64,000 nt of DNA from Halichondria panicea (lineage: Eukaryota; Porifera; Demospongiae; Suberitida; Halichondriidae): NCBI RefSeq assembly GCF_963675165.1, contig NC_087393.1, positions 5,196,202 through 5,260,201 on the forward strand, read 5' to 3'. The number at the start of each line of letters is the position of its first letter. The first letter of the stretch is position 1. The translations under genes were made by a program, and so were the position numbers. Shown in pieces: positions 33,093-64,000 of the stretch. The notes below the pieces were generated by a model. That model saw only the letters and a program-made list of their open reading frames with translations. It ran no database searches and was not told the DNA's origin.

Positions 33093-33093
<1 letters not shown>

Positions 33094-33124
<31 letters not shown>
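33094..33124. repeat. GT microsatellite
   Basis: About 15 GT dinucleotides in the spacer between receptors F and G. Confidence 0.9.
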
Positions 33125-33126
<2 letters not shown>

Positions 33127-33317
33127 ATTTGACAAATATTTTGTGCTATTCCGCAAATTTATTGCAAAACTACACAATAGATTATTACAGCGAACAATAG
33201 TTGCATTCAAGTAAGGTCTAGTGAACAATGCTTCCATTGTAAGGCCTCCTATTAGAGAGATCATGAGACCTGCACACACACTCTTAACAAACAGTGTGTG
33301 TGCATAGCTAGCTAGAA

Positions 33318-34709: not shown

Positions 34710-35055
34710 GAACTGTTTATCAGCACGGAGCATATTTTAATTTTTAATTAGCACTCGTACAACAAGTTTAATAGCGATCCATGTGACACACAGATAACTA
34801 GCTACCATGCAATGTTTGTTTGTGCGAGTGAAATATACTAATTAAGCACTTTGTACAATTTTTATACTTATAAGCTGTCATAGTGATCCATAATCAGACA
34901 CTGAGATTGTGTTGGGGAACAATGGAGAGAGTAAGTGCTCACAATGGACAGGCACACAACAGTAGTAACTAATGATCATACGTGTGCGTGCGTGCATGTA
35001 TAGCTACATCACTTGATAAACACCCACGACTTTAATTAGAGTTGAATCGCATGCA

Positions 35056-36446: not shown

Positions 36447-36648
36447 CGCATGACGAGTGAATATTGTAGTTTAGCTATCATGGTTGTGATTGTAATACAC
36501 AATGCACACACCTTATATATAATATATACGAGTAAGAATGATCACATGACTTCAGATTATTATCTGCACAGAAACAGTCCAAGTGTACATGTGAGTTGTA
36601 ATATTTGCTATATGATAGATCAGTTATAGTGGTACTATTAATAATATA

Positions 36649-37209: not shown

Positions 37210-37606
37210 CACGTATATTCAACTCGCATACGGATATTCAAGTAAAGCTTTTTTGTGAAAACAGTTTTATAAGGTTTGGTTAAGAATGTACGTAAAGTGG
37301 AGACTATTACAGTACCATTACAACATACAACGAGTGGTTGTAGTTTAGCTACCATATATGGTTGTGATTGTAGAGTACACTAATTAATACCGGTATCAAG
37401 AGTGCATGAAGTCCCGATACACAATGCAGACACCTTATATGACTGACTGTGTATATACGAGTAAGAATGATCACATGACTTGAGCTAATTATCTACAGGG
37501 AAACATTCCTAGTGTTTAACTATCTGAGCAGGCATAACAGGATAGATCAGTTACAGCCGCTACTATTATAAATGCAGAGCTCACTACCGTCTCCCACAAG
37601 TTCCCT

Positions 37607-38113
37607 ATGGCTACCACAACTACAGCAATGGACACTAGTACTCTACACGCAACACCGTCAATGGGGCCGGGGCCTAGCAACAACAGTCATGTAGCAATTG
37701 GTGTAGCAATTTTTACTGGAATTCCACTAATTATAATAATAGCCAGCGTCAATGCTTTAATCGTCTTGTGTTGCATACTACATTATAAGTCAAAGAAGCT
37801 GAAAAGGATGAAAAGAGAACACAATACAGCAGACGATCTAAACACATCCGAACCCATTTACGAGGAAGTAAGCGATGAGACAAGATTGAGACAAAATTCT
37901 GCCTCTACAACAAACTCCCTAGAATACGAGTCTATCAGAAGCATACCCCCAGAGAGAGGTCTACCCCCAGAGATGAGCCTACCCCTATACGACGAAGCGT
38001 ACTGTACCAGTGACAGGGAAACACAAGAAATGGAGCCACTAGAGTTAGAGAATAGACTGTCAGTACAGGAGTTCACTAGTAACATTGCATACAACCTTTT
38101 AACTGGACAGTAA
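37607..38113 (+). CDS. array gene J: paralogue of gene I
   Basis: Single-exon ORF of 168 residues; the ATG at 37607 is the first in frame. A Thr-rich outer segment precedes the TM (FTGIPLIIIIASVNALIVLC) and a tail with EPIYEEVSDE, LEYESIRS, LPLYDEAY and SNIAYNLLTGQ. The 5' and 3' flanks also match gene I, so the pair is a tandem duplication of about 950 bp. An upstream ATG at 37572 is out of frame. Confidence 0.7.
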   Translation: MATTTTAMDTSTLHATPSMGPGPSNNSHVAIGVAIFTGIPLIIIIASVNALIVLCCILHYKSKKLKRMKREHNTADDLNTSEPIYEEVSDETRLRQNSASTTNSLEYESIRSIPPERGLPPEMSLPLYDEAYCTSDRETQEMEPLELENRLSVQEFTSNIAYNLLTGQ

Positions 38114-42328: not shown

Positions 42329-42433
42329 TTAATGAGCATTGTCCCGCATGGTGGCTTTGGCTTGTCGGGAGAGGGGGACTGCAATGGCAGAGGTTGCCAT
42401 GGCAAGCACAGTCACAATGATGAGAGCCTTCAT
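42329..42433 (-). pseudogene. secreted-peptide paralogue 1: premature stop after the leader
   Basis: The signal peptide and pro-segment match the family (MKALIIVTVLAMATSAIAV then PLSRQAKA), but a TAA at 42331-42329 stands where the 45.9-kb paralogue has a Gly codon. The ELDRE word follows directly in the same frame, so a nonsense change explains it. Downstream another open stretch (42281-42048) has acidic sequence in a different frame. Probably a pseudogene. Confidence 0.75.
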
Positions 42434-42523
42434 GTCTTTTTATAGCCTCGGAGAGTTTAGAGCTTCTTGAAACAGTTGATCGATCTTCAGTGAGTACGAT
42501 GCTAGAATTTCTACATGCAACTG

Positions 42524-42531
42524 CTTTTATA
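42524..42531 (-). promoter_or_regulatory. TATA box of peptide paralogue 1
   Basis: TATAAAAG on the minus strand, about 91 bp 5' of the ATG, inside a block (tgtataaaagcagttgca) shared with paralogues. Confidence 0.65.
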
Positions 42532-43237
42532 CACGGCCATATGAAACAAAACAAATAAGGCGAAACTACCTGACAGTCTATGCAACTTATTGCTCAAAAG
42601 ACAAGTTTCCAAGAAAGAATACACACCAATACTTCCATTGCTAAGGGGTCCGTTGTTCTATAATAAATTATATAGGCATTCACAACACAAGCATTCCATA
42701 CACGTAGCCATGCACATCTCAGCCATCACTATTACAAAAGATAAGCCCTAAAATCTCTCCTGTGATGTTAAACATTCCAGACAGATTATAATCACTATAT
42801 ATATACATGCATACCCTTGACTATACCTATATATATATTTACGATTTCACTGTTTAGCTCATTTTGCTGGTATCATATCCTGATCAAGTTGTGAAATCAT
42901 ATAGTGTTTCAAGCGGTTTTATTGAGCATTTTCCAATTATCTGCGATTTTACTCTCATTCGCAGAAATAGAAATTAATACTCCCGAAAATATGTCCCCAT
43001 AAATGCTATACTATACGATCCATGAATAACGCCACATATACGCATGCATAAAGAATACACCAATAAAACAGTCAAATTTACATTATTATTGTCCTCATGT
43101 CGACACTACACACACATTGTGTTCACTTCATATCTGCGAATGATATAGCCACCATGGCACCCACAATACCAATTATTTCTGTATCCTCTGCAGTCGTCCC
43201 ATCCTTTCCTGCCTCCTTCTGTTCAACATGTAAGCCT

Positions 43238-43913
43238 TCAAGAAGATGGGGCAACATGCACGGACAACATTTTCCCGAGAAATGTAGCAGAGATCAATAT
43301 CCTACTATCGGGGATTGCTTGCGTCTCTGATTTCTGCTCCTGCATTCTCGGTTTGTGTTGCACTCCAAGTAGGTTAGTTAGATAAACGCCCAACTTCCGC
43401 AACATTGTACTGAATGGGCCTGGGTCTGATCCCTTCGTCATCGCATCGTTCTCTAGCATTCCCTTACCATGAGAGACACGACCGGGCTTATGATAGTATT
43501 CCAGAGTTTGTCAACGAAGGCTTCCATTCCAGCATTGTCTTGCGCAGTAGGAGACTCTCTTTCAAGTTCTCTATTCCGCATGCCTGTACCAGTATTGAGA
43601 ATACCCGGGCCGTACTTTGCAACAGCGTCCCAAACAGCACTCAGCCATCCTCCTTCTATTTTAGCTTCGTCTTGCACAGTAGGAGACTCTCTGTCAAGTT
43701 CTCTATTCCGCATGCCTGTACCAGTATTGAGAATACCCGGGCCGTACTTTGCAATAGCGTCCGCAATATCACTCAGCCATGCATCCTTCCATTTCAGCAT
43801 TGCCCTGGATGGCGGCGGTGCAGAGGGCTTGAGCTTTGGCTTGTTGGGAGAGGGGGACTGCAATGGCAGAGGTTGTCATGGCAAAGCACAGTCACAATGA
43901 TGAGAGCCTTCAT
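43238..43913 (-). pseudogene. secreted-peptide paralogue 2: frameshifted leader and body
   Basis: ATG at 43913-43911 starts the shared leader, but an extra base (gtgctttgcc for gtgcttgcc, near 43885) shifts the frame. A second 4-bp gain (tgcatggctg) lies near 43785. The repeat body is still open (43863-43453) with two copies of an amphipathic segment ending KYGPGILNTGTGMRNREL and acidic ERES spacers. Either a pseudogene or an assembly error; the two shifts do not cancel. Confidence 0.7.
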
Positions 43914-44002
43914 GTCTTCTTATAGAGTCGGAGAGTTTGGAACTTCTTGAAGAGGCAGTTGATTGACCTTCAGTAAGTATGATGCTAGACTTTGTGCAAC
44001 TG

Positions 44003-44010
44003 CTTTTATA
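44003..44010 (-). promoter_or_regulatory. TATA box of peptide paralogue 2
   Basis: TATAAAAG on the minus strand, about 90 bp 5' of the ATG, in the conserved block. Confidence 0.6.
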
Positions 44011-44656
44011 TATGCATGCGGTACTGAAGTACTTATACCAAATACCAGGAATAGTAACAGACAAGCTAGTGCAGTACCGCCCCAAATATATACAGCCATA
44101 ACTATACACGTATATAAGCAATATAAATTGCAAAAAATACCTGAAACCACTTATGCATCCGTTACCAAGAATATACCGATAAGTAGCTTCCAGCCATGCA
44201 CATCTAGGCCATCATTACAAAGAAGATATGTGTTATCAATTACCAAGAAAATCAACCATGCAAAACCGGAAGCCCTATAATATATAGTCAGAACCATTAC
44301 TGACAAGTGCATTCGACTTGCCCTCCCATGCATGCAGCGATTATAACACACTGACAGAAGAGACTAACCATTTTAGCTCACATTTCACATTTCACTATTA
44401 GTATAAATTATATATAGATGCAGGTCAGTTAATTATGCACTAATCTCAACATGTTCATGTACATAGATCATACACAACTATATGTATTGTACATTTCCAG
44501 AGTCTACAAATATACATACGTATATACACTAATAGCACAGTCATCAAACAATGTTACTAATTTATTCTTGCCTTTCAAAGTGTTATGCAGGAGCACTTAT
44601 TGCATTGCATGGGCATTGACAGAGTGATGGATCGAGTACTTGCTCGTTTTTCTTTA

Positions 44657-45516
44657 GACGTAGGCCCTTCAGTGGACGCTTTAGATGTCGGCCCTTTAGT
44701 GGACGCTTTAGATGTACGCCCTTCAGTGCAGGACGCTTTAGATGTCGGCCCTTTAGTGGACGCTTTAGATGTCGGCCCTTTAGTGGACGCTTTAGATGCA
44801 GGCCCTTCAGTGGGTTGTTTAAATGTCGGCCCTTCAGTGGACCCTTTAGATGCAGGCCCTTCAGTGGGTTGTTCAGATGCAGGCCCTTCAGTGGGTTGTT
44901 TAGATGGAGGCCCTTCAGTGGGTTGTTTAGATGCAGGCCCTTCAGTGGGTTGTTTAGATGCAGGCCCTTCAGTGGGTTGTTTAGATGCAGGCCCTTCAGT
45001 GGGTTGTTTAGATGCAGGCCCTTCAGTGGGTTGTTTAGATGGAGGCCCTTCAGTGGACCCTTTAGATGCAGGCCCTTCAGCGGACGCTTTAGATGTAAGC
45101 CCTTCAGTGGACGCTTTAAATGTGGGCCCTTCAGTGGACGCTTTAAATGTAGGCCCTTCAGTGGACCCTTTAGATGCAGGCCCTTCAGTGGACGCTTTAG
45201 ATGTCGGCCCTTCAGTGGACCCTTTAGATGTAGGCCCTTCAGTGGACGCTTTAGATGTCGGCCCTTCAGTGGACGCTTTAGATGTAGGCCCTTCAGTGGA
45301 CGCTTTAGATGTCGGCCCTTCAGTGGACCCTTTAGATGTAGGCCCTTCAGTGGACGCTTTAGATGCAGGCCCTTCAGTGGACGCTTTAGATGTCGGCCCT
45401 TCAGTGGACCCTTTAGATGTCGGCCCTTCAGTGGACGCTTTAGATGCAGGCCCTTCAGTGGACGCTTTAGATGTAGGCCCTTCAGTGGACCCTTTAGATG
45501 TCGGCCCTTTAGTGGA
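44657..45516. repeat. 27-bp minisatellite, ~32 copies, encoding a cationic nonapeptide in the frame of the adjacent gene
   Basis: Head-to-tail units of ttcagtggacgctttagatgtcggccc, with variants (gacgc/gaccc/ggttg; gtcgg/gcagg/gtagg). On the minus strand, in the frame of the 45.9-kb gene, each unit reads as variants of K-G-L-H-L-K-R-P-L. This frame is open from just after that gene's TAA (45536-45534) to a TAA at 44585-44583, with no shift over ~316 codons. The gene's last codons (KGLRLK) are themselves a repeat-like unit. Two plus-strand frames are also open, because 27 is a multiple of three. Confidence 0.9.
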
Positions 45517-45533
45517 TGAAGTACTTGTTTGTT

Positions 45534-45935
45534 TTACTTTAGCCGTAGGCCCTTCTCATTGCTACCTTGTTGGCCGTCATTACTACGGTTGCCTTGTCGG
45601 CATTTGCATTGTTTACTGACGTTGTTTCCAGCACCAAGATATGGATTACGTTTGTTTTTCTTATCCTTCCCTTGCACTCTAGCCTCTCCATCATTGAGTA
45701 GCCTTAGGCCGTCCCTCAACTTGGCGGGGTCAAGTTTCTTAAGGAATCCTCCAATATCGCTCAGCATTCCTTCCGTTTCAGCTTCTTCTTGGATGGTTGC
45801 AGACTCTCTGTCAAGTTCTCCATGAGCATTGTCCTGCATGGCGGGGAGGAGAGCAGCTTGAGCTTGTCGGGAGAGGGGGACTTCAATGGCAGAGGTTGCC
45901 ATGGCGAGCACAGTTACAATGATAAGAGCCTTCAT
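45534..45935 (-). CDS. secreted-peptide paralogue 3: short precursor with cationic C-terminus
   Basis: Single-exon ORF, 133 residues. It has the family signal peptide (MKALIIVTVLAMATSAIEV) and PLSRQAQA. Then come the acidic GELDRESATIQEEAETE, one amphipathic segment (GMLSDIGGFLKKLDPAKLRD) and a basic tail with KDKKNKRNPYLG and a KCKC pair. Probably secreted and processed to one or more peptides, antimicrobial or otherwise membrane-active (inferred from layout). It ends where the 27-bp cationic array starts in the same frame. Confidence 0.75.
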   Translation of the reverse strand: MKALIIVTVLAMATSAIEVPLSRQAQAALLPAMQDNAHGELDRESATIQEEAETEGMLSDIGGFLKKLDPAKLRDGLRLLNDGEARVQGKDKKNKRNPYLGAGNNVSKQCKCRQGNRSNDGQQGSNEKGLRLK

Positions 45936-46016
45936 GTATATATATAGCGTCAGAGAGTTTGGAGCTTCTTCAAGCGGCAGTTGATCGATCTTCAGGGAGT
46001 ATGATTTCTGCAGCTG

Positions 46017-46024
46017 CTTTTATA
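46017..46024 (-). promoter_or_regulatory. TATA box of peptide paralogue 3
   Basis: TATAAAAG on the minus strand, about 85 bp 5' of the ATG. Confidence 0.65.
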
Positions 46025-46239
46025 CACGGCCATGAATAAAACGGGATCTCCCTGCATGGAATTTCAACAGCCCCCCTTGTGGTCGATGAGGAACAAGGAA
46101 AGAAGTTCACCACGTGTGCTGCACCTCTCCCCCATTAACACGAAGTACTCTAAATGCAAACACCAAGAATTTGGAATTTGTTTTATCTTCTAAAGACATA
46201 TATATACAAGTGCAAGTTGGTTAGGAAGGTTGTTCCCAG

Positions 46240-46405
46240 CCATGCACATCTATAAGCCACCATCACAAGGAAACACACTCCCTCATAAGAGAGCCATGAA
46301 CATCTATAAGCCACCATCACAAGGAAACACACTCCCTCATAAGAGAGCCATACATATTTATAAGCCACATCACAAGGAAACACACTCCCTCATAAGAGAG
46401 TCATG
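46240..46405. repeat. 54-bp satellite, ~3 copies
   Basis: Units of cacatctataagccaccatcacaaggaaacacactccctcataagagagccatg, about 300 bp 5' of paralogue 3. Confidence 0.9.
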
Positions 46406-47414
46406 CATGCATATATCTAGAAGCCAGGGCCTCGTTACTATAGACAGTGTAGACACAGATGCTATATCACCCCACTACCATAAAGCCACCGATAACAACT
46501 ACATGCACACAAGCATGAACAAAATTGTAAAATTTTTAATTGCACAAGATGAAGTGTACTCAATACACATGCACACATTGTATTCAGTTGATCCCTCCAC
46601 ATTAGCTTAGGCCGTCCTTTCATCATAGCTTCTGTTTCAGGATATAAGAATAAGAGATGGAGTAACGTCAGCAGCTTGTCACCTCTAGTTCTCTCTACAC
46701 CCACAGACCATACTCTCAGTAATGCAATAACAACGGTCTTAGCTTGCCTAGCCACACTATATACACACACATGCACAGGCACACAAGGAGCTATAGGGCG
46801 TACGCGTAACTTGTATAATGAAAAAGATATGGTCAAGGAAAGAGTGTTGTTAGGATATATCCACACACTATACCTTGTACATGGCATTATCAAACCAATT
46901 TATCAGACAGCAACAATTATCCGGGTGTAGATCTTTACAGCGCACGTGAGATGTCCGGAACAATTAGAACAGGCATAGCTGCATGTGAAGCTAAGCTCAT
47001 GCAGTTTAATAGTATATACGTGTGACTGAACAGTTGCACTAGCTATCTCTATATCCTTGAGCTTGCACAACTCATGCTATAGCTCAATCAATACCTTACA
47101 CATGCACACACACTCAGTACATGCATGCATATAGGAAGCTATATATATATATTATACACACACAAAGATGGTAATGTACTGCATGCACATGCAATAGATG
47201 TCAAGTGGTTTAGATCCACTGAGTTATATACTTAATGCATGAAATGAATCTAATTTCAGATCAATCAAACAAATTATAATTTATTTTATATACTGTACAT
47301 TTTTAGAGTCTATATATAATACATAATAATAATTATACGTACATGCATGCATGCACTAATAGAAACAATGTTACTCATTAGTTCTTGTCCTTCCAAGGCG
47401 GCAGGAGAATTTTT
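46406..47414. other. spacer with duplicated segment
   Basis: The part from about 46545 to 46810 (ttcagttgatccctccacattagctta ... cagcagcttgtcacctctag ... aaggagctat) recurs near 52975-53120 and 61375-61500. It is part of the duplicated unit around each peptide gene. No gene seen. Confidence 0.6.
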
Positions 47415-48593
47415 TTAAACATCAAGAGCCTCTTTCATCCATTTTGGCAAGATGTTTCGGTTACCAAGATATGGTTTCAATGCTCCTCCGTTCTTCATTC
47501 GTGGAAGGACCCGTTTACCAAAAAGATATGGTTTCAATACTCCTCCTTTTTTCATTCGTGGTAGCATTTGGGTTTGGAAACCTTGGTCAGGTTCCTTGAC
47601 AATATGAGAAGGAGCGCTTTTCGATCGCGGCCCTTGCACTCTAACATTTCCTTCATCGAGTAGCAATCCTTCCATTTCAGCATCGTCCATTTCAGCTTCC
47701 TCTTGCACGACAGCAGACTCTCTGTCAAGTTCTTCATTCCATATACCTGCATCACCAGCAGCTTTTATACCTTTCTTCAGAAGACCAGGACCGTGCTTAG
47801 CAATAGCGTTTCCAATAAAACTCAGCAATCCTTCCATTTCAGCATTGTCCATTTCAGCTTCCTCTTGCACGACAGCAGACTCTCTGTCAAGTTCTTCATT
47901 CCATATACCTGCATCACCAGCAGCTTTTATACCTTTCTTCAGAAGACCAGGACCGTGCTTGGCAATAGCGTTTCCAATATAACTCAGCAATCCTTCCATT
48001 TCAGCATTGTCCATTTCAGCTTCCTCTTGCACGACAGCAGACTCTCTGTCGAGTTCTTCATTCCATATACCCGCATCACCAGCAGCTTTTATACCTTTCT
48101 TCAGAAGACCAGGACCGTGCTTGGCAATAATATAACTCAGCAATCCTTCCATTTCAGCATTGTCCATTTCAGCTTCCTCTTGCACGACAACAGACTCTCT
48201 GTCGAGTTCTTCATTCCATATACCCGCATCACCAGCAGCTTTTATACCTTTCTTCAGAAGACCAGGACCGTGCTTGGCAATAGCGTTTCCAATATAACTC
48301 AGCAATCCTTCCATTTCAGCATTGTCCATTTCAGCTTCCTCTTGCACGACAGCAGACTCTCTGTCGAGTTCTTCATTCCATATACCCGCATCACCAGCAG
48401 CTTTTATACCTTTCTTCAGAAGACCAGGACCGTGCTTGGCAATAGCGTTTCCAATATAACTCAGCAATCCTTCCATTTCAGCATTGTCCTGAATGGCGGC
48501 GAGGAGAGCTTGAGCTTTGGCTTGTCGGGAGAGGGGGACTGCAATGGCAGAGGTTGCCATGGCAAACACAGTCATAATGATGAGAGCCTTCAT
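47415..48593 (-). CDS. secreted-peptide paralogue 4: five-repeat precursor
   Basis: Single-exon ORF, 392 residues. The family leader is followed by five near-identical ~53-residue repeats. Each has an amphipathic, cationic segment (GLLSYIGNAIAKHGPGLLKK then GIKAAGDAGIW) and an acidic spacer (NEELDRESAVVQEEAEMDN). One copy lacks three residues (SYIIAKH). The C-terminal part is basic and has its own short repeats (LPRMKKGGVLKPYL, LPRMKNGGALKPYL) plus FGKR, a classical amidation/dibasic cleavage site. The layout fits a multicopy peptide precursor in which acidic spacers mask cationic helices until release. No known family is recognised by name. Confidence 0.8.
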   Translation of the reverse strand: MKALIIMTVFAMATSAIAVPLSRQAKAQALLAAIQDNAEMEGLLSYIGNAIAKHGPGLLKKGIKAAGDAGIWNEELDRESAVVQEEAEMDNAEMEGLLSYIGNAIAKHGPGLLKKGIKAAGDAGIWNEELDRESVVVQEEAEMDNAEMEGLLSYIIAKHGPGLLKKGIKAAGDAGIWNEELDRESAVVQEEAEMDNAEMEGLLSYIGNAIAKHGPGLLKKGIKAAGDAGIWNEELDRESAVVQEEAEMDNAEMEGLLSFIGNAIAKHGPGLLKKGIKAAGDAGIWNEELDRESAVVQEEAEMDDAEMEGLLLDEGNVRVQGPRSKSAPSHIVKEPDQGFQTQMLPRMKKGGVLKPYLFGKRVLPRMKNGGALKPYLGNRNILPKWMKEALDV

Positions 48594-48680
48594 GTCTTCT
48601 TATAGAGTCGGTGAGTTTGGAGCTTCTTGAAGAGGCAGTTGATCGATTCAGTGAGTATGATGCTAGACTTTCTGCAACTG

Positions 48681-48688
48681 CTTTTATA
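48681..48688 (-). promoter_or_regulatory. TATA box of peptide paralogue 4
   Basis: TATAAAAG on the minus strand, about 90 bp 5' of the ATG. Confidence 0.65.
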
Positions 48689-48921
48689 CACGGCCATGAA
48701 TAAAAAGGAATCTCCCTGTGTGGGAAATCTTAAGACACCTATAATAATATCAACAGCCTTTGTGACTGCAGAGGAACAAGGAAAGAAGTTCACGTGTGCT
48801 GCACCTCCCCCCCCCCACATGATAACCAACAATTATTAACACTTTAAAATGTAAACACCAAGAATTTGATTGATCTTCTAAAGGCCTATACAAGTGCATG
48901 AGTTGGTTAGGAAGGTTGTTC

Positions 48922-49216
48922 CCAGCCATGCATATCTAGAAGCCACCATCACAAGGAAACACACTCCCTCATATAAGAGAGGCAATGCACATCTAGAAGC
49001 CACCATCACAAGGAAACACACTCCCTCATAAGAGAGCCATGCACATCTATAAGCCACCATCACAAGGAAACACACTCCCTCATAAGAGAGGCATGCACAT
49101 CTAAAAGCCACCATCTCAAGGAAACATGCACACTCCCTCATAAGAGAGCCATGCACATCTATAAGCCACCATCTCAAGGAAACACATTCCCTCATAAGAG
49201 AGCCATGCACATCTAT
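48922..49216. repeat. 54-bp satellite, ~5-6 copies
   Basis: Same unit as at 46240, about 330 bp 5' of paralogue 4, with some variant units (tctaaaagcc, catctcaagg). Confidence 0.9.
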
Positions 49217-49247
49217 ATAAGCCGCATGCTGCAGAAAGGCTGCTATA

Positions 49248-49365
49248 TACCGTAGAAACTGGATTATTAGCCCTTACTCGATTATAAGCGTATCTTAGTT
49301 TTAAGCGCATGCTCAACTGCAGGTTTTTTGTACTTTATTGAAGCGCTTTTCCAATTATGCGAAGA
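49248..49365. repeat. dispersed repeat, copy 1 (accgtagaaactggattattag)
   Basis: About 118 bp from accgtagaaactggattattag to ttccaattatgcgaag, repeated directly at 49669-49790 and in inverse order at about 52640-52740. Confidence 0.75.
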
Positions 49366-49668
49366 AATTTTTGAATTGATTGGCTAAATTTGTTTATCTC
49401 TATAGCTCTATATGAGCTACAGTCTATATATATAGCTGGTGATACCCATCTGGAAGGACTCTTTGGGCAATTAAGCTGTTACCTTGTCTGATCATGCTGA
49501 GAGAATGGAGACTTCTGTTCTTGCATGCATGATCAATTATGACATGTTTTATAATAATTATGAATTTAAATGCTGTACTAATGATAAGTGTATAGCATTA
49601 TGATAATAGATAGTAGCAAGATATAGACCTAGTTAAGGTAGCCTGCATGCCTAGTTTGCTCACTTTCT

Positions 49669-49790
49669 ACCGTAGAAACTGGATTATTAGCGCTTACTCG
49701 ATTATAGGCGTATCTTTATTTTAAGCGCATGCTCACCTGCAGGCTTTTTATACTCGAATTGAAGCGCTTTTCCAATTATGCGAAGGTTAT
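49669..49790. repeat. dispersed repeat, copy 2
   Basis: Second direct copy (accgtagaaactggattattagcgc ...). The segment agctggtgata...gtctgatcatgctgagagaatg also occurs twice (49435-49510, 52360-52435), so larger duplications are layered here. Confidence 0.75.
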
Positions 49791-49962
49791 TAGTGTAATT
49801 TTAGAATTGATTTAGCTAATTTTGTTTATCTACGAGCTAGTCAGAAAAGGCTGGACACGTGTCATCCGTAGTCATCCGTTAGTCATTAATAGTCATCAAT
49901 AATCCCATGAATACGCTTAAAATCGATCCTTTTCTATCCTGCTGAGTCAGCATTTTACCTAA

Positions 49963-51937
49963 GGGTCATTCCATATCAATTCAACGAAATTTAAAACGTG
50001 ACGTCTTCAGAATTGCACGAAACTTGGTACATGTGTGAGGAATGGTATGATAACATCTCAGAAAAAATGTTGGGTTTGTAAACAATATGGCTTCTGAGAT
50101 TAAGTTAATTAAAAAATGCAGAATTTCCCCACTTTTAGAAACTGGCTGCTGTTAGTTAAACTGTAACTTTCTAACCATTAACATTCAAGACTAAGAATGT
50201 ATATCATCTTGTTGCCTAAGAAATTCCGCATCATTTGGCATGTTGTATGGCTTCACTCGATAAAGTTTGGGTATTCCATCTAATTAGTGTTCTTTGAAGT
50301 CCGGCTTCTCAAAAAACGCTGTTTTTTTCCTGTACTTTTTTGAGTATCATGTTCCTTATACAATTCTCTTGAAGTGTGACAAGTTTGATTCTGGGATTCC
50401 AATGGGATCATGAGATATGTTGTGGGATGTAGTGTGATTTGGGCAATATTTGTGGTTTTAGAGAATAAACAGTCCTTAAAAAAATTTTGCAAAGCCTTTC
50501 TGCATTCCCAATTGTTACTGTGCACTTTTCCTTAGTAAGTAAGCTGTGTGTGAGACCCTTTGTTGTGGCAATATTGCAATTAGCAATATATCGTAGGTTT
50601 TAAGTTGATGAACGACATTACCTACGTTCAAGCTAACAATTGTACGTTTTAGTTGTAGCAATGGTGATTTCATAAAAGTTGAGCAGTATAAAACATTAGC
50701 ATTAACATTTAAAAACATTAACAAGCCTAGCCCAAATGTTTGGTCAGTATTTCAGATGCAGCTTTAATCTCCTTCTTGGATAAATTCGACCTGTTCTGAT
50801 TTGATGATCAATTGTTTAAAAAAATAAAATCATGTAGGCAACGTATAAAATTATCTATGTCTGAGGCTGGGATACTTGAATAAGCTGCATTATGGCCCGT
50901 GAGGGTAAAGAAATTGTACACACACTAGTGAGTTGTGTGGTTTACTTGGAAAACACCCTAGCTAACCACCCATTTTTTTGTGCAAACCAATCACGAAATA
51001 TTCTCTGGTAGCATTTCAGTTTCTACTGAGATTACTCAGTGTCCATCTTCTGACTGCAGTACTATACTGTATCAGTAGCTAGAGATGGTTCAAATAATTT
51101 ATAATGTGTGTAGTTTGCATGTATCTGGAATTGTTTGAGAAAACAAGAAATTATTGTTCAAGATGATGCTGCTCTCTCTCATAGTCCTCTGTAGTGCAGT
51201 ACTCAAATGGCTGATATGCTTGTCACCGCTCAATCAAATAGCTGGCGTGGTGTCAGTATTATTTTGCTGCTCGTATGGTCGCTGTAAACTTGTTTTAGCT
51301 ATCAGTCGTTTTACAGTTCCTCGGCTGAAAATGTCACTCGGCCGAAAGTTCGAATTCTTCCTTGTGATAACATAAGTTCAGGAAAGTTAGCACACATATT
51401 TTAGGTACATTACACAACAAAGAAGGACTGTTTATTCTCTGAAACCACAAATATTGCCCAAATCACACTACATCCCACAACATATCTCATGATCCCATTG
51501 GAATCCCAGAATCAAACTTGTCACACTTCAAGAGAATGGTATAAGGAACATGATACTTAAAAAAGTACAGGAAAAAAACAGCGTTTTTTGAGAAATCAGA
51601 GTTTGAAGGATACTAATTAGATGCAATACCTAAAATGTATTAAGTGAAGCCGTACAACATACCAAATGATGCGGAATTTCTTAGGCAACAAGATGATATA
51701 CATTCTTAGTCTTGAATGTTAATGGTTAGAAAGTTACAGTTTAACTAACAGCAGCCAGTTTCTAAAAGTGGAGAATTTCTGCATTTTTTAATTAACTCAA
51801 TCTCAGAAGCCATATTGTTTACAAACCCAAAATTTGTTCTGATATGTTACCATACCATTCCTCACACATGTACCAAGTTTCGTGGAATTCTGAAGACGTC
51901 ACGTTTTAAATTTCGTTGAATTGATATGGAATGACCC
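49963..51937. mobile_element. foldback element, ~1,975 bp with ~520-bp inverted arms and CTAA target duplication
   Basis: Left end gggtcattccatatcaattc and right end gaattgatatggaatgaccc are perfect inverse copies. The arms stay similar over about 520 bp (left to ~50490, right from ~51410), sharing ggattccaatgggatcatgagatatgttgtggg. CTAA flanks both sides (49959-49962, 51938-51941) as a likely target-site duplication. The centre has no convincing transposase; the 73-codon ORF at 51154 is not recognisable. Non-autonomous DNA element. Confidence 0.85.
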
Positions 51938-51941
51938 CTAA

Positions 51942-53692
51942 CTCTTCCATTGCTTGTCTATCTCTCTTGTATTATATCTCCTGTTAGTTAATGAGTCGTA
52001 GTAGTTTAACAATATGATTGCTATACCTGCTACATCAAGACAGGAGTAAAAAAACAAAGGCAAGTACAGCAACAACTTGATGTTTGTGACTAATCTAAGT
52101 TTCTGGCTCATTGCTTCTAGTATGGCTATGCTACTCAGTTTCTAGTTTCACTGGGTATTTTTAGCATCATTTATTACTAGTATGGAGTGCTAAAATCGCT
52201 TGCAGGCTTTTGACTTGGCTGAATAGCTACTGTTCTCTGCAAGTTTCCGTATATCTCTCAATGCACACACATTTCCTCCGTAAAACATTATGACGCGTGT
52301 CCAATCTCCTATGCGAGCTAGTTAGCTTGTACAGTGCATGATAGCTATATACTAATATAGCTGGTGATATCCATCTGTAAGGACTCTCTGCATGGGCATG
52401 CTGTTACCTTGTCTGATCATGCTGAGAGAATGTGAGACATGGATGAGGTCCTTTTATTCCAAGTTCCTGGTCAATATGAATGTTTTTATAATAATTTATG
52501 AATTTAAATGATGTAAATGAACTATAAAATGAACTGCAACATAATAGTATGATATAGATCCGGTTAGGGTTGCCTGCTTGCTCACTTTCTAGCCAGCTTG
52601 CGAGTCAGCTCTCATCACAGAGACATCCGGTTGTTGGGTGGGGCTCAAAATGATTCATTATAGGCGCATTCTCGAATATAAGCGTATAGAGCTCTGCTAT
52701 TGACCCCATGCATGCGCTAATAATCCAGTTTCTACGGTATTCCGCAAACATTAAATCCGGAAAGTTTATACGTGTACCCTCGAAATACGGTATACACACA
52801 TATGGTACCACCCCACCACCACCACAAAGCCACTGATACAACCACATCATGCATGATCAAAATGAACTGTAAACTTCTTATTGCACAACTTCAAAGGAAT
52901 GTTTCATATTATACACATGCACTATATGATTATTCATCCAGTTTCTGTAAACTACTGTACACACATATACACATTGTATTCAGTTGATCCCTCTACATTA
53001 GCTTATAGATCGTCCTTGCATCACCGATTCTGTTTCAGGACAAGAATGAGAGCAACTTCAGCAGCTTGTCACCTCTACTTATCTCTACACCCACACACAC
53101 GCAAGGAGCTAGGGCGTAACTTGGTAGATCAGATACAACGAGCAAATGAGGAGATTACTACCCGGATTTGATCGTCTTGCTATGTACAAACTTTAATTAT
53201 GTCAAACCGCTACATGTAAGTGCTGCTAACATTATTCATTGTAGCTACTTAATGATTCATTATATTATCATAGGTCAAACGCGACCGCACATGTACAGAA
53301 TCTTAGCATTACAAACAAGGAAATGTAGTTACACGATAGTGAGTCCGCAATGCTATATATATATATGCATAGTAAGACGCTCCATTTCCTCATGTGCTCC
53401 TCGTTATAATTTCATAAGCAAATTGGAAATTAGAGATCTTTCCCAATCACCACCAGCACATGCACAACATGCACAACATGCAATACAGGCAGCTGCTACT
53501 ACACACAAGGGATGGTATAATGTACTGCACAAGAGATGTCCATGAAAGTGGTTTAGATATACTATTTCCAAGAAATGAATCCAATTTCAGATCAAATATT
53601 GCTCAAAGCAATCATAACCCAACTAATTATATCGTACATTTCTAGAATCTACAGAATCATTCTAATACATACGTACACTATTAGCACAGTCA
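51942..53692. other. repeat-derived spacer
   Basis: It holds an inverted copy of the accgtagaaactgg repeat (about 52640-52740), the duplicated segment shared with 46.5 and 61.4 kb (52975-53120), and acatgcacaac short repeats near 53458-53480. No gene seen. Confidence 0.55.
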
Positions 53693-54301
53693 TCAAACAA
53701 TGTACTCATTATTCTTGCTGTTAGTAATGTCATCTAGCCATTTAGGAGTATCGTCAAAAGAATATTTCTTACGCAAATTTTCCGTCTGTTGGCGCAGTCT
53801 ATTACACCTTTCTTCGTCTTTTTTATGCTTGTAAATCCTCTGTCCGCACTCAATAAGAACATCCAACGCAAATTTCCTAAATTTGTTCTTCCCTTGCACG
53901 GCAGCAGACTCTCTCTCGAGTTCTTCATCCCACAAACCCGCACCACCTAGAAACTTGAGAACAGTTGGACCATACTTCCCAACAGCGCCTCCAATATCAC
54001 TCAACAATCCTTCCATTTCAGCTTCATCTATTTCAGCTTCGTCTATTTCTGCTTTCTTTTGTACGGAAGCAACTTCTCTGTCAAGTTTTTCATCCCACAA
54101 TAATGCACTACCTAGAGCGGCAAGACCAGTCTTGAGAACAGTTGGACCATACTTCACAACAGCATCTCCAAGCCATCCTTCCATTTCAACATTGTCCTGA
54201 ATGACGGCGAGGAGAGGTCGAGCTTTGGCTTGTCGGGAGAGGGGGACTGCAATGGCAGAGGTTGCCATGACAAGCACAGTCACAATGATGAGAGCCTTCA
54301 T
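53693..54301 (-). CDS. secreted-peptide paralogue 5
   Basis: Single-exon ORF, 202 residues. The family leader (MKALIIVTVLVMATSAIAV) is followed by two amphipathic segments (a divergent WLGDAVVKYGPTVLKTGLAA, and the common GLLSDIGGAVGKYGPTVLKF) with acidic spacers, one enlarged by an EIDEA repeat. The C-terminal ~70 residues are basic (KNKFRKFALDVLIECGQRIY, RLRQQTENLRKKY) with two Cys. Probably secreted and cleaved. The C-terminal domains differ fully between paralogues while the leader does not. Confidence 0.75.
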   Translation of the reverse strand: MKALIIVTVLVMATSAIAVPLSRQAKARPLLAVIQDNVEMEGWLGDAVVKYGPTVLKTGLAALGSALLWDEKLDREVASVQKKAEIDEAEIDEAEMEGLLSDIGGAVGKYGPTVLKFLGGAGLWDEELERESAAVQGKNKFRKFALDVLIECGQRIYKHKKDEERCNRLRQQTENLRKKYSFDDTPKWLDDITNSKNNEYIV

Positions 54302-54391
54302 GTCTTCTTATAGCGTCGGAGAGTTTGGAGCTTCTTGAAGAGGCAGTTAATCGATCTTCAGTGAGTATGATTACTAGACTTTCTGCAACTG

Positions 54392-54399
54392 CTTTTATA
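54392..54399 (-). promoter_or_regulatory. TATA box of peptide paralogue 5
   Basis: TATAAAAG on the minus strand, about 91 bp 5' of the ATG. Confidence 0.65.
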
Positions 54400-54627
54400 C
54401 ACAGCCATGAATAAAAAGGTATATCCCTGCGTGGAAAATCTGAAGACACCTATAATATCAACAGCCTTTGTGGCTGCTGAGAAACAAGGAAAGAAGTTCA
54501 CGTGTGCTGCACCTCTCGCCCATTAACACAAAGTACTCTAAATGCAAACACCAAGAATTTGGAATTTGTTTTATCTTCTAAAGGCCATTATACAAGTGCA
54601 TGAGTTGGTTAGGAAGGTTGTTCCCAG

Positions 54628-55040
54628 CCATGCACATCTATAAGCCACCATCACAAGGAAACACACTCCCTCATAAGAGAGCCATGCACATGCATCTATA
54701 AGCCACCATCACAAGGAAACACACTCCCTCATAAAAGAGGCATGCACATCTATAAGCCACCATCACAAGGAAACACACTCCCTACCATCACAAGGAAACA
54801 CACTCCCTCATAAGAGAGCCATGCACATCTATAAGCCACCATCACAAGGAAACACACTCCCTCATAAGAGAGCCATGCACATCTATAAAACACCATCACA
54901 AAGAAACACACTCTCTCATAAGAGAGCCATGCACATCTATAAGCCACCATCACAAGGAAACACACTCCCTCATAAGAGAGCCATGAACATCTATGAGCCA
55001 CCATCACAAGGAAACACACTTCCTCATAAGAGAGCCATGT
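54628..55040. repeat. 54-bp satellite, ~7-8 copies
   Basis: Same unit as at 46240, about 330 bp 5' of paralogue 5, with one partial unit near 54784. Confidence 0.9.
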
Positions 55041-55176
55041 CCCACAAGCCAGGGGCTTGATACTAGGCAGCTGTTTCCCTCTCCTATATACAGTTTCCTC
55101 GACAAGTTCACACAATGTGGGAAATGGATTTTACACAACTCTTAAAGCTGCTAAGTGTAGACACAGATGCTACCAC

Positions 55177-55414
55177 TACCGTATAGCGCGAAATTTTCGA
55201 GGGGCTTAATTTTCGCGGATTTCGTGGGTTAGCAATCCTACACGAAAATTAAGCTCACGAAAATTGTTGTTTAATTAGAATTATCTGCTATAACGTGCAA
55301 AGATTTAAAGGCGTGGCTTCCGGTAAGCAGTCATTCCGCGAACATTGTGCAACGAAATCTTTTAGAGGCCAATCCACGAAATATAAGTACCTTGAAATTT
55401 CGCACTATACGGTA
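55177..55414. mobile_element. MITE-like element, 238 bp
   Basis: Ends taccgtatagcgcgaaattt and, inverted, taccgtatagtgcgaaattt (19/20 match). Inner palindromic words (cgaaaattaagctcacgaaaatt, gcggatttcg). No ORF. Likely TA-target, non-autonomous. Confidence 0.8.
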
Positions 55415-56549
55415 TACTCCCCCCCCCTCCAAAGATACTGTATACAGCATTAAGATACAAGATATCATGAAAGTGGTTTATAATTATATAGATCCATGCA
55501 CTGATCGAGTTATATCATGCTGCATGAAATTAATCAATTTCATATCAAACACATAATTATTATAATTATATACTGGAAAACAAATGTGCACATAATTATA
55601 TGCACTAATAGCACAGTCATCAAACATGCATTTATAGCATGCATATATAGTTTTACAGTAACTTTGTCATCACCTGCATCATGCAGTTTCTGTTCAAGGG
55701 GAAAAGGCCAGTTTAATAATAATTACATAATAATTACATCTAATTATAGGAGTGGCTATTTTATAGTAGCTTATCTACTAGCCTGGCATAGCCGAAGAGA
55801 GCTGGTCTAGACACTGTCTAGAGCTAGCTATAGCTGTGTTGTTTCTTCTGGCTGGTATATATACATGCATGGTTGAGGGAGGGGCTGACTGACTGAACAG
55901 AGAGGGGAGTGGCTCTGTACCGTTCGTTTGGAGGGATGGGCTGGCTGCGCAAGGCTTTGAGTTCTATATAGTGTGGACAGAAGCCCTTGTGTGGACGAGA
56001 GCTATCTTTTCCTATAGTTGTCTTCTTGTTTGAATAGTGTTGCTATGTGGTAGTCATACAAGCTTACATGCATGGCTGGATGCATAGCCACCAATCAGCC
56101 AATCCGAGATGGGAGTTACTGCACAGTGCCTTGGGGTTTATGACAGTAACATGTAAGTCTCATAAAAGAGGCATGTCCCACACACATGCAAGGGCCTCGT
56201 TATTACTAGACAGCTCTGGTATAGATCCCCAAGATAACAGTTTCCATACAATAACAACTCGCTTCGCATTCGTGGCACACACTCCCACATCCATAATGCG
56301 CTGAAGAATAATGACATCAGCTGGCTCTTAGTGAGAGCCACCTCAATCAACAACAGTCTATACAATAGTTGAACGGTATATATAACATACTTACATATAT
56401 ACATGTTTCACTATTTAATACAACCTGAATCAATATGCTCACTATATATGCAATAACAACGGCCAGTCTTGGCTTGCCTATAATTATAGCCAACACATTA
56501 TACAGGTACACACGCACACAAGGAGCTAGGGCGTACCAGCGCAGAACTT
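55415..56549. other. spacer, nothing recognised
   Basis: AT-rich with scattered aattat words. A relic of the 54-bp satellite (cataaaagaggcatgtcc) lies near 56160. No coding exon that I can support. Confidence 0.5.
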
Positions 56550-56747
56550 AAGGTGACATATTTTCGCGTGTATTAATTTCTGCTATTTCTGCGAACGAGA
56601 GTAAAATCACAAAAATTAGTACTCGCAAATAATTGGCCGCTCTCTTGTTTAATGTATCCAGATCGACATTTCGCAAAAAATTGTACCAGCAAAATGTACA
56701 AAACTGTAAAAACGTAAACAAATCTACCTGTGAAAATATGTCACCTT
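56550..56747. mobile_element. MITE-like element, 198 bp
   Basis: Perfect 16-bp inverted ends aaggtgacatattttc / gaaaatatgtcacctt. A decayed relative is at about 42960-43005 (gaaaatatgtccccat). Confidence 0.8.
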
Positions 56748-56969
56748 GAGGTATATAAGTATATAGATCAGCCATCCTTATATAATGGTGTGTATTAGAC
56801 ACTAGACACAATCAACACTTGCACACATCCAGTACATGCATAGGAAGCTGCTAGTAGAACCCTCACTGCGTTCGGGATTCTACAGAACGCCCTTTGGGCT
56901 TCTAAATCACGTAGAAACTTCCTAAACAGTGTCTAACTATTATATAGATGTCCATGAAAGTGGTTGAAT

Positions 56970-57199
56970 TACCGTATAGCAGGATTTTTTTCAAGGGCAG
57001 AGCTGCCAGAGCATGCATGCAGTTAACACGAAGATTAAAACTGGAAGAAACTCTCATGCACTGCATGGTATTTTATACGTTTGCACATTGCTGGTGGGTG
57101 TAGTATCCAGGCATTGAAGCGTGATTACAACTGATTAAATTTATTTTGAGGGCTCTCAATCAAAAATTTGCACCCATGACAATTTCCCGCTATACGGTA
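56970..57199. mobile_element. MITE-like element, 230 bp
   Basis: Ends taccgtatagc and gctatacggta; the same family as the 55.2-kb element by its termini. No ORF. Confidence 0.7.
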
Positions 57200-57373
57200 T
57201 ACCAAATATGCAAGGTTCCATGAAATGAATCCAATTTCAGTCAAACATCGCATGTTCATAATTACAATAACGCAAATCATACACAACCATATAATACTAT
57301 AAAGTCACTAAATAGATATACATATTTATTATGCATGCACTAATTGCACAGTCATTAAATAATGTTCTCTTTG

Positions 57374-58183
57374 CTATTCCAAAGCACCAACAGCATCGTT
57401 GAGGATATTTTCTGCAGTAAGCTTGTTAATTTCATTACTTAGCTTGGATATTTTCTTCGCTTTTAAATTAGCAGCTATACTACTATTAAGAATGGCTATC
57501 AATTTTCGTTTAGCATTCTGTTCCATTTCAGCTTCTTCTTGCACGGCAGCAGACTCTCTGTTAAGTTCTTCATCCCACAAACCAGCACTACCTAGAAACT
57601 TGAGAACGCTTGGAGCATACTTCCCAACAGTGCCTCCAATATCACTCAACAATCCTTCCATTTCAGCTTCTTCTTGTACGGCAGCAGACTCTCTCTCGAG
57701 TTCTTCATCCCACAAACCCGCACCACCTAGAAACTTGAGAACAGTTGGACCATACTTCCCAACAGCGCCTCCAATATCACTCAACAATCCTTCCATTTCA
57801 GCTTCTTCTTGCACGGCAGCAGACTCTCTGTCGAGTTCTTCATCCCACAAACCCGCACCACCTAGAAACTTGAGAACAGTTGGACCATACTTCCCAACAG
57901 CGCCTCCAATATCACTCAGCAATCCTTCCATTTCAGCTTCTTCTTGCACGGCAGCAGACTCTCTGTTAAGTTCTTCATCCCACAAACCCGCACTACCTAG
58001 AAACTTGAGAACAGTTGGAGCATGCTTCCCAACAGCGCCTGCAACATCACTCAACCATCCTTCCATTTTAGCATTGTCTTGCATGGCGGCGAGGAGAGCT
58101 TGAGCTTTGGCTTGTCGGGAGAGGGGGACTGCAATGGCAGAGGTTGCCATGGCGAGCACAGTCACAATGATGAGAGCCTTCAT
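57374..58183 (-). CDS. secreted-peptide paralogue 6: four-repeat precursor
   Basis: Single-exon ORF, 269 residues. The family leader is followed by four ~43-residue repeats. Each is an amphipathic segment (GLLSDIGGAVGKYGPTVLKF then LGGAGLW, with variants VAGAVGKHAP and GTVGKYAPS) plus an acidic spacer (DEELDRESAAVQEEAEME). The middle two are nearly identical. The C-terminus is a different lysine-rich helix (NAKRKLIAILNSSIAANLKA). The helix/acidic alternation suggests a polypeptide precursor for membrane-active peptides; activity is not shown by sequence alone. Confidence 0.8.
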   Translation of the reverse strand: MKALIIVTVLAMATSAIAVPLSRQAKAQALLAAMQDNAKMEGWLSDVAGAVGKHAPTVLKFLGSAGLWDEELNRESAAVQEEAEMEGLLSDIGGAVGKYGPTVLKFLGGAGLWDEELDRESAAVQEEAEMEGLLSDIGGAVGKYGPTVLKFLGGAGLWDEELERESAAVQEEAEMEGLLSDIGGTVGKYAPSVLKFLGSAGLWDEELNRESAAVQEEAEMEQNAKRKLIAILNSSIAANLKAKKISKLSNEINKLTAENILNDAVGALE

Positions 58184-58273: not shown

Positions 58274-58281
58274 CTTTTATA
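58274..58281 (-). promoter_or_regulatory. TATA box of peptide paralogue 6
   Basis: TATAAAAG on the minus strand, about 91 bp 5' of the ATG. Confidence 0.65.
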
Positions 58282-58515
58282 CACGGCCATAAATAAAATG
58301 GAATTTCCCTGTGTGGGAAATCTGAAGACACCTAATAATATCAACAACCCTTGTGGCTGCTGAGGAACAATTAAGGAAAGAAGTTCACGTGTGCTGCACC
58401 TCTCCCACACGATAACAATTATTAACACTTAAAAATGCAAAAACGTAATTTGTTTTATCTTCTAAAGGCCTGTATATACAAGTGCATGAGTTGGTTAGGA
58501 AGGTTGTTCCCAGCC

Positions 58516-59570
58516 ATGCACATCTATAAGCCACCATCACAAGGAAACACACTCCCTCATAAGAGAGGCATGCACATCTATAAGCCACCATCACAAGGAA
58601 ACACACTCCCTCATAAGAGAGGCATGCACATCTATAAGCCACCATCACAAGGAAACACACTCTCCCTCATAAGAGAGCCATGCACATCTATAAGCCACCA
58701 TCACAAGGAAACACACTCCCTCATAAGAGAGCCATGCATCATCTATAAGCCACCATCACAAGGAAACACACTCCCTCATAAGAGAGCCATGAACATCTAT
58801 AAGCCACCATCACAAGGAAACACACTCCCTCTAAGAGAGCCATGCACGTCTATAAGCCACCATCACAAGGAAACACACTCCCTCATAAGAGAGGCATGCA
58901 CATCTATAAGCCACCATCACAAGGAAACACACTCCCTCATAAGAGAGCCATGCACATCTATAAGCCACCATCACAAGGAAACACACTCCCTCATAAGAGA
59001 GGCATGCACATCTATAAGCCACCATCACAAGGAAACACACTCCCTCATAAGAGAGGCATGCACATCTATAAGCCACCATCACAAGGAAACACACTCCCTC
59101 ATAAGAGAGGCATGCACATCTATAAGCCACCATCACAAGGAAACACACTCCCTCATAAGAGAGCCATGCACATCTATAAGCCACCATCACAAGGAAACAC
59201 ACTCCCTCATAAGAGAGCCATGCACGTCTATATATAAGCCACCATCACAAGGAAACACACTCCCTCATAAGAGAGCCATGTACATCTATATATAAGCCAC
59301 CATCACAAGGAAACACACTCCCTCATAAGAGAGCCATGCACATCTATAAGCCACCATCACAAGGAAAAACACTCCCTCATAAGAGAGCCATGCACATCTA
59401 TAAGCCACCATCACAAGGAAACACACTCCCTCATAAGAGAGCCATGCACGTCTATATATAAGCCACCATCACAAGGAAACACACTCCCTCATAAGAGAGC
59501 CATGTACATCTATATATAAGCCACCATCACAAGGAAACACACTCCCTCATAAGAGAGCCATGCACATGCA
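58516..59570. repeat. 54-bp satellite, ~19-20 copies
   Basis: The longest of the four arrays, about 330 bp 5' of paralogue 6. Some units carry a 4-bp tata gain (ctatatataagcc). A ~210-bp higher-order block recurs (59225-59320 and 59450-59540). Open frames here are artefacts of the 18-codon period. Confidence 0.9.
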
Positions 59571-62543: not shown

Positions 62544-64000
62544 TTAGCTCCAAATTTTATCCTTTGGCCCACCGACTTTACGTTTCGAAGGCGCCCCAAC
62601 TATTGCACCAATGTCTTCAAGAACTTTGCTGTTAGACACAATCTTGGAATGATTTACTTTGCTGAAGGTCTTGTACTGGAAAGAATATTTGGAAGGCATA
62701 CTTGACCACCTGTGACATACCCTAGAGCTAATAGTGTTTACTGATCCGTCCCCGTCACCGTTCTTAACAACTGGTCGCAAGCCAATAGCATTGCTAGGTG
62801 TCAGATCTTTTGAATAGGTGAATTTTTCCGGGGTAGGTACACCAACTCCATAGAAACAGTACGTTGGTACATTGGGAGCGGGGTAGTCTGATACTAGACT
62901 TTGCACGCCTTGAAAAGCCCGATAAACATTTGGAGCATTGAGGTCCCGAAACAGCTGTTCATAATCGTTAGCTGAGTACGTTTTGGACGGTGTTGATATG
63001 AGAGCAACGTTGCCAAACACTGAGGGCTTCGGAAACAGCCAAGGAATACTCTCGAATGTACGACCAATCGGAACAATAAAGTCGCTGATCAAACCGTACG
63101 CAAATAACAGCAAGTCAGGAATACCATGGTAACCAGATACGACACTTTGAACAGTCGCTGCACCACCAGACCAAGCAGCTGATAGTGTAACGTACGCATG
63201 GATGTACTTGTCCTTCCATGCTTGGTTAATCCCACTGAAGCCGGTCAGAAAGTGCAGGGAAACGAGACCACCCATACTGTGTACGACCAGGGTCACCTTA
63301 GTATTGCCGTTGGTTTTGTACATGTCTTCAATCATCGACTTGAGACGATGGAAGTATCCTCTCTTCTCAAGCTCATCTGTTACGATATTGAATAACGAGG
63401 TTACCTCAACACTTATAATAGTATAGCTATAGCTGGAGGTTTCTTATAAGCTTTACACCAAATTACCCTCTCACTGAAAGCAATACTATATAATTCTTTT
63501 CTTTGGTGTCTTACCTGCAGCCAATCTCCAGTCATAAGGAGCCCCTCGAATAGTCTCTCCTCTTTTGTAGCCTCGATCGACAAAGTATTTCACCGTGTCG
63601 TGAAAATATGGGAGTATATTTTTCATAATTCCAGGGTCGAGATATTCGACACTCGATGTCCCGCCAAATCCAGGAACACGGATCTCCACTTTAGTATTGT
63701 TGTGGTAGGAGTTGGTATTTGCGTTGTATCTCAATCTGTTAAATAGATGTGATAAAACTTATCTAGTGATGTCACTGAGACTAACAATAACAAAATTTAA
63801 TGCTAACACTTGAAGTGTTACATAGCTAAAATAATAAGCTGCATTGCCATTACTTACGGCAGCTCTCTCTTTGCACAAATATTGTAGAGGGAGAGTCGTA
63901 ATGGAGATATCCATAGCTTCTTGTATTCGAGACGAGTCGAACACAAGGAGGTCTGATCCTTAACTTGGAGTTGGGAACCCATCACACCCGGAACTAAACA
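62544..64000 (-). CDS. LCAT/PLA2G15-like lysosomal phospholipase, 5' end outside the window
   Basis: Three exons keep frame: 64000-63858 (partial), 63735-63515 and 63376-62544. It begins within VPGVMGSQLQVKDQTSL, then KLWISPLRLSL, RVPGFGGTSSVEYLDPG and RGAPYDWRLA. The lipase nucleophile Ser sits in VVHSMGG. The family's QAWKDKYI, YGVGVPTPEKF, catalytic Asp region NGDGDGSVN and catalytic His region VNHSKIV follow in order. The match is closer to group XV phospholipase A2 (YGTGVPTP, GDGDGTVN) than to plasma LCAT. It would transacylate or hydrolyse phospholipids in lysosomes or outside the cell. The C-terminus extends past the His with a basic tail. Confidence 0.9.

Follow-up and report, generated by a model that had tools for sequence, protein, structure and literature searches.

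What does a compact cluster of genes in the demosponge Halichondria panicea, a species already used for immune work according to the available part of one study (PMC8242945), encode: precursors that are cut into several secreted peptides, or secreted repeat proteins that act whole? The cluster lies on the minus strand at 42.3-58.2 kb of a 64,000-nucleotide stretch, C17:5196202-5260201, which is called the window below. It comprises six gene copies, all of which begin with the near-identical leader MKALIIVTVLAMATSAIAVPLSRQAKA or close variants, as the original prediction had it. That prediction, made from the window alone, proposed a new family of multicopy secreted peptide precursors of antimicrobial layout, and the existence of such a family in a sponge is supported by the present analysis, in which the genome searched comprised 131 Mb in 39 contigs. 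Judged by sequence, it is fairly probable that the window genes encode processed, membrane-active host-defence peptides, as the weakly charged multicopy branch of a repertoire of linear peptides in H. panicea that resemble antimicrobial peptides (AMPs). We infer for the window precursors transcription, points of cleavage, membrane action and a role in defence.

Six paralogues had been claimed, and six copies with a shared leader are indeed present, but only g1 to g4 are intact, while g5 is split between frames and g6 breaks off early. A seventh member, g7, is intact and lies outside the window, 1.3-1.7 kb past its edge.

57374..58183, minus strand: g1, a 269-residue precursor with a signal peptide, a pro-region, four amphipathic repeats of 45 residues and a helical tail
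57980..58060, minus strand: first repeat of g1, GWLSDVAGAVGKHAPTVLKFLGSAGLW, given by residue positions; amphipathicity was computed for three of the four g1 repeats
57845-57925, 57710-57790 and 57575-57655, minus strand: further repeats of g1
53693..54301, minus strand: g2, a 202-residue precursor with two repeats, whose tail groups with those of the database proteins P0006 and P0007
47415..48593, minus strand: g3, a 392-residue precursor with five repeats of GLLSYIGNAIAKHGPGLLKKGIKAAGDAGIW, one of them three residues shorter
about 47739-48470, minus strand: repeat array of g3, with a period of 162 bp and 5.2 copies
45534..45935, minus strand: g4, a 133-residue precursor with one segment (about 45687-45770)
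43453..43913, minus strand: g5, damaged, with the leader and two repeats in different frames, spanning three frames
42329..42433, minus strand: g6, damaged, the leader running into a stop after 34 codons

The intact genes g1, g2, g3 and g4 thus carry 4, 2, 5 and 1 repeats, in agreement with the claim of one to five tandem segments divided by acidic spacers. The spacers between repeats follow the pattern (D/N)E(E/K)L(D/N/E)RE(S/V)..VQ, and a degenerate DNA pattern for ELDRESAA has one match in the window, against 0.00 expected from 100 shuffles, the remaining spacers being variants. When the first 175 residues of g1 were compared with the whole genome, at least 11 matches were found, all within the C17 cluster. 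The protein database holds 34 relatives (the second of two productive protein searches scored the best 8000 candidates), of which P0002 is g3 and P0020 is g4, and the 32 others share the leader. P0001 is g1 minus one repeat and is presumably an allele of it, and P0034 is an intact relative of the damaged g6. The host-defence reading is supported by the intact frames, the leader, the repeats and a TATA motif before all six window copies, and equally by the 32 relatives other than the window's own genes that carry the leader, together with P0001.

None of the 34 relatives has a precomputed Pfam domain or a source name, and a Pfam-A scan of 10 family proteins returned no credible family, including no known AMP family; DUF3460 (on g1) and DUF1999 (on g3) pass the cut-off as sums with no single stretch passing, and were judged spurious matches over repeats. 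No solved relative of g1 was found in the Protein Data Bank (PDB) by sequence, no confirmed relative in the viral contigs and other genome contigs scanned, and no paper title on this family among those listed by a search largely confined to the open-access literature.

The helical-moment check that had been suggested bears out the amphipathic character of the segments. Hydrophobic moments exceed those of composition shuffles (p<0.05) in 8 of 9 own-genome segments and in 5 of 6 segments from relatives, so that this general AMP trait is present, and they do not do so in one relative's segment (0.20), in a spacer (0.35) or in two tails. The joint before the first segment is ME|G in 26 of 36 family proteins, in our own count, among relatives that share ancestry and are hence not independent. 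The peptide starts that had been foretold, GLLSDIGG and GLLSYIGN, fit this recurring joint, with cleavage there being predicted. In P0028-P0031 an AEVEG joint recurs ahead of a second hydrophobic segment. Amphipathicity in the segments but not in the spacer, combined with the ME|G joint, further supports the host-defence reading. To call the segments cationic, in contrast, was an overstatement, because they are barely charged: across 33 rows, residues 1-28 of the first segment have a net charge of -2 to +4 (His uncounted, the cut including a spacer residue in some rows, and P0032-P0034 yielding no row), and the nine own-genome segments, which were cut by eye, have one of 0 to +3.

The proposed maturation would run as follows. 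The products would be secreted prepropeptides that would lose their signal peptide at about ...SAIA|VPLS. The acidic stretches, pro-region and spacers alike, would maintain the amphipathic segments in solution and prevent them from doing harm. Cuts near AEME|G and within the (D/N)EEL.R spacer would then liberate between one and five peptides, each about 27-31 residues long. These peptides, of the form G(W/L)L...A..K(Y/H)GP..LK..., would be helical with a Gly-Pro hinge, and may target, at the surface of the sponge, microbial membranes or those of other cells.

A wider repertoire came into view through a weak match of P0029 (E 0.07), which led to contig C5 and then to C11 and C6. What is new here is a cluster on C6 of single-copy precursors with strongly cationic ends, along with two multicopy precursors on C5. 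One C6 protein matches the genome 34 times at E<=0.01, on contigs C6, C4, C5 and C11, with several of the matches being parts of a single open reading frame (ORF). P0038, which is the NCBI uncharacterized protein LOC135337519, is contained letter for letter in the L063 ORF, as is P0040, which is LOC135344462, in the L056 ORF; both NCBI entries are H. panicea proteins, which identifies the species of the genome. A search with the C6/C11 alignment gave 48 database matches. A pattern covering the first mature residues was able to cut 44 of these, and 27 of the 44 pass the pro-region pattern. These 27 C6 segments (<=40 residues) have a charge of +7 to +14, and a terminal G with one or two R/K is found in 17 of them and in 24 of the 48 C6/C11 matches; terminal G-R-R is a possible amidation mark. 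An example of a C6-type terminal peptide is GWRRIARKVARGVKKYGPTALKYGVKYGLGRR. The C6 precursors (LOC135337519 and its relatives) resemble the window family in their signal-peptide-like start, acidic pro-region, common G-W start and, in some, a KYGP..LK core, but differ in being single copy, in their strong charge, in ending in many cases with G-R or G-R-R and in having another leader. The C5 precursors (ORFs of 491 and 733 residues), reached only via the weak P0029 match, share with the window family a signal-peptide-like start, acidic spacers and tandem segments (5 and 8, by reading), but their segments are longer and Lys-rich and their spacers Asp-rich. Judged by sequence, these two seem more promising as AMP candidates than the window genes do.

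C5:3164056-3166173, minus strand (L045), and C5:3244777-3246216, plus strand (L040): the two multicopy precursors, with tandem Lys-rich segments between Asp-rich spacers

The two groups are linked by the KYGP..LK core that window and C6 segments have in common in hhalign comparisons. Sets partly picked by eye scored 28.1 (prob 92, E 8e-7), where the best of 200 column shuffles reached 13.7 and reversed profiles 6.7-7.1. Broader sets of 33 window and 27 C6 rows scored 19.6 (prob 31, E 5e-4); here column shuffles (n=200) reached at most 11.4, heptad-class shuffles (n=150) at most 11.3 and reversed profiles 8.7-8.8. P0068 KYGPGLLKAGLK and P0022 KYGPGLLKTGLK, a pair picked by eye, agree in 11 of 12 residues. 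There is thus a good case, resting on 22-26 aligned columns, for a common core in the two sets of segments, and this core is probably homologous; the mature core is shared (a short match, prob 31-92), whereas the leader is not. The host-defence reading draws support from a core common to C6 segments of such high charge, 17 of 27 of which end in G and R/K. The antimicrobial part of the original prediction gains new support in one respect, the core shared with strongly cationic C6 peptides often ending in G-R or G-R-R, and falls short in another, marked positive charge.

Several results weigh against the host-defence reading. Typical AMPs are more charged than the near-neutral window-type segments, and the clear net positive charge that is a general AMP trait is not seen in segments of -2 to +4. 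The g4 segment is not significantly amphipathic against shuffles (p=0.20), and AlphaFold2 gave the g1 repeats no confident structure (mean pLDDT 44 for g1). None of g1-g4 ends in G-K or G-R, and g1 has no dibasic site before its tail, only those at tail positions 225, 226 and 243. The broader core match reaches only prob 31, and whole-precursor profiles of the window and C6 families match in signal-peptide columns alone (prob 2.7). Positive selection on the segments was rejected as a shown fact, between-gene dN/dS being 0.68.

The first alternative is that the protein is never cut but serves in mucus, matrix or a surface coat as an acidic secreted repeat protein whose helical tail would mediate assembly, and we regard this as unlikely. 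It accounts for the net charge of whole precursors (-20 for g1, -21 for g3) and for the absence of dibasic sites ahead of the g1 tail. Dibasic sites flanking the repeats, as in precursors cleaved at such sites, were not found in a scan of g1-g4. The repeats of g1 and g3 are unflanked; g3 has KK within its five segments and in the tail and none in the spacers, g2 has one KK after the first spacer (82) and others in the tail, and g4 has KK inside the segment (66) and others in the tail. The uncut reading also fits the AlphaFold2 model of g1 (15 sequences, pTM 0.21), in which the sole confident stretch is the tail, all 43 residues at pLDDT 70-90 lying there (about 221-268), with block means of 73-83 from residue 221, and a mucin-like repeat frame just downstream of g4. 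On the other side, the segments keep a core that is found in the C-terminal peptides of single-copy precursors, the tails differ in kind among genes, and g4 has a single segment.

The second alternative concerns the core itself: the likeness might have arisen by convergence, both groups having come to an amphipathic helix hinged at Gly-Pro. This is compatible with the other readings and would make the likeness uninformative on host defence. It too seems doubtful. In its favour, the match spans only 22-26 columns and reaches prob 31 in the broader sets, whole precursors match nowhere outside the signal peptide, and K(Y/H)(G/A)P occurs in 6 of 48 C6/C11-type against 15 of 32 window-type database proteins, yet the reversed and heptad-preserving controls score far lower, and the agreement of P0068 with P0022, although picked by eye, runs to 11 of 12 residues. 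Secreted signalling peptides acting on receptors rather than membranes are improbable: near-identical repeats, weak charge and a C-terminal G-K, a possible amidation mark, in P0028, P0029, P0030, P0032 and P0033 (also in P0007, whose tail is of another type) are offset by g1 spacers without dibasic sites, amphipathic segments, a core common with highly cationic C6 peptides and many divergent paralogues.

The multicopy layout with linkers is already known from spider venoms, and clustered, genus-restricted AMP families are known from Hydra. As described in the portion of a review available here, spider-venom precursors consist of a signal peptide, an anionic pro-region and linear peptides joined by short anionic linkers, the end of the pro-region being reused as linker, and the complex precursors of latarcins and cupiennins have the same layout as the window family (PMC7889660). 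Single quadruplets of some spacers, ELDR and RESA, fit the PQM and iPQM wording of that source. The linker rule itself fails, because spider linkers begin and end with Arg (PMC7889660), whereas window spacers have one mid-spacer Arg and end in AEM(E); in the 11 parsed spacers of g1-g3, no Arg stands directly before the next segment. The window segments are also near neutral, unlike spider-venom peptides, with spider sequences compared only through the Pfam and PDB scans. The arminins and periculins of Hydra are, by the description in excerpts of PMC10945409, genus-restricted AMP families in chromosomal clusters of an early-branching animal, a likeness to the window family, and those excerpts mention no multicopy repeats, unlike the window family.

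For sponges, the gene-encoded ASABF-type peptide of Suberites domuncula is termed the sole known AMP extracted from these animals in passages of a 2025 review, which also has it that other sponge peptides were suggested to lessen the need for short linear AMPs (PMC11767717). ASABF has a Cys-stabilised fold, and such a Cys framework is absent from the window family (no Cys in g1 and g3, two each in g2 and g4). For sponges, the sections available from three reviews present ASABF and, for the most part, cyclic peptides, with no mention of a linear helical AMP (PMC11767717, PMC10608444, PMC12466427), and two of them count sponges as rich in AMPs, one as among the most abundant sources (PMC10608444, PMC12466427). 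The main text of an H. panicea immune transcriptome paper, as far as it was available, holds no word beginning "antimicrobial" (PMC8242945). Named peptides of 27-40 residues now make the use of gene-encoded linear peptides by sponges a testable question.

The cluster further illustrates how a 5' module can stay conserved at silent sites while the tails behind it differ. The TATA motif TATAAAAGCAG occurs six times on the minus strand of the window and not on the plus strand, each time preceding a family member, and the distance from TATA box to ATG is 89-98 bp in all six copies.

58274..58281, minus strand: TATA box of g1, 98 bp before the ATG
54392-54399 (g2), 48681-48688 (g3), 46017-46024 (g4), 44003-44010 (g5) and 42524-42531 (g6), minus strand: TATA motif of the other copies

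Mean pairwise identity among g1, g5, g6 and g7 falls from 0.87 in the 85 bp before the ATG to 0.67 at -86 to -115 and 0.45 at -116 to -300. The upstream likeness of g1, g2 and g3 extends far further (600-740 bp), so that a short conserved 5' module applies to the older copies. Within the coding region the leader, pooled over g1, g2, g3 and g7, has a dN of 0.046 and a dS of 0.073, as against between-gene values of 0.315 and 0.464 for segments (0.132 and 0.160 for spacers). The leader is therefore conserved at silent sites also, a pattern to be expected from gene conversion or from a 5' module that is used again.

The claim that C-termini differ while the leader is conserved holds, the tails of g1-g4 being dissimilar. 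At E<=1e-3 the tails of 36 proteins sort into 13 groups. The largest has 13 members, and six consist of a single tail, those of g3 and g4 among them; the cuts were ad hoc, and segment pieces that remained in several tails swell the largest group. The g1 tail groups solely with that of the near-identical P0001. Intron read-through is not favoured as the origin of the tails, since that of g2 groups with those of P0006 and P0007; for the tails of g1, g3 and g4 it is less improbable. It is conceivable, though it must be called speculative, that these parts form a combinatorial peptide system, in which one ancestral amphipathic module (KYGP..LK) stands behind at least two unrelated secretory leaders. 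The C6 genes would provide strongly cationic, probably amidated, single-copy peptides, and the window cluster, with its swapped tails and homogenised promoter-to-leader cassette, would deliver weakly charged partners in quantity by varying the number of repeats. The role of these weakly charged peptides would be to modulate or potentiate the cationic ones, with the microbiome of the sponge shaped as a result.

Each of g1-g4 has a 54-bp minisatellite ahead of its ATG, at a distance of 303-331 bp. This minisatellite was rejected as a peptide gene, being open in more than one frame.

58512..59567, no strand assigned: 54-bp minisatellite, 19.2 copies, about 330 bp upstream of g1
54626-55039 (g2), 48924-49217 (g3) and 46238-46407 (g4), no strand assigned: other copies of the 54-bp unit, upstream of each gene

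Elsewhere in the genome (6 candidates scored), the unit occurs at one or more sites just past the window and at one or more on C8, where at C8:5068634-5069588 (L030 and beyond) a fragment of the family promoter adjoins the minisatellite, the match ending before the leader. At C7:5.95-7.24 Mb there are eleven copies of the family promoter, 5' untranslated region and at most about 10 first codons, followed by unrelated sequence.

L015, L018, L020-L022 and L024-L029: cassette copies on C7, found by the promoter search

No family peptide was seen in the codons inspected of these eleven copies, the frame departing from the leader within about 10 codons. A dispersed repeat seems to have captured the promoter-to-leader cassette.

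Directly downstream of g4, a 27-bp array of about 32 copies (window 44575-45555, minus strand) holds the mucin-like STEGPTSKA frame of 326 residues, which differs from the g4 frame, further frames of the array being open as well. At 23000-38100 on the plus strand of the window stand tandem membrane-protein-like ORFs with the pattern AQQCGV..PSY.F.C..VVT.WGAYV, a hydrophobic stretch and a tail with 60-bp repeats, for which three pieces scanned gave no Pfam match. Domains in neighbouring ORFs are LCAT (window 62547-63443, minus strand), fibrinogen C-terminal (L010) and CLEC16A C-terminal (L011).

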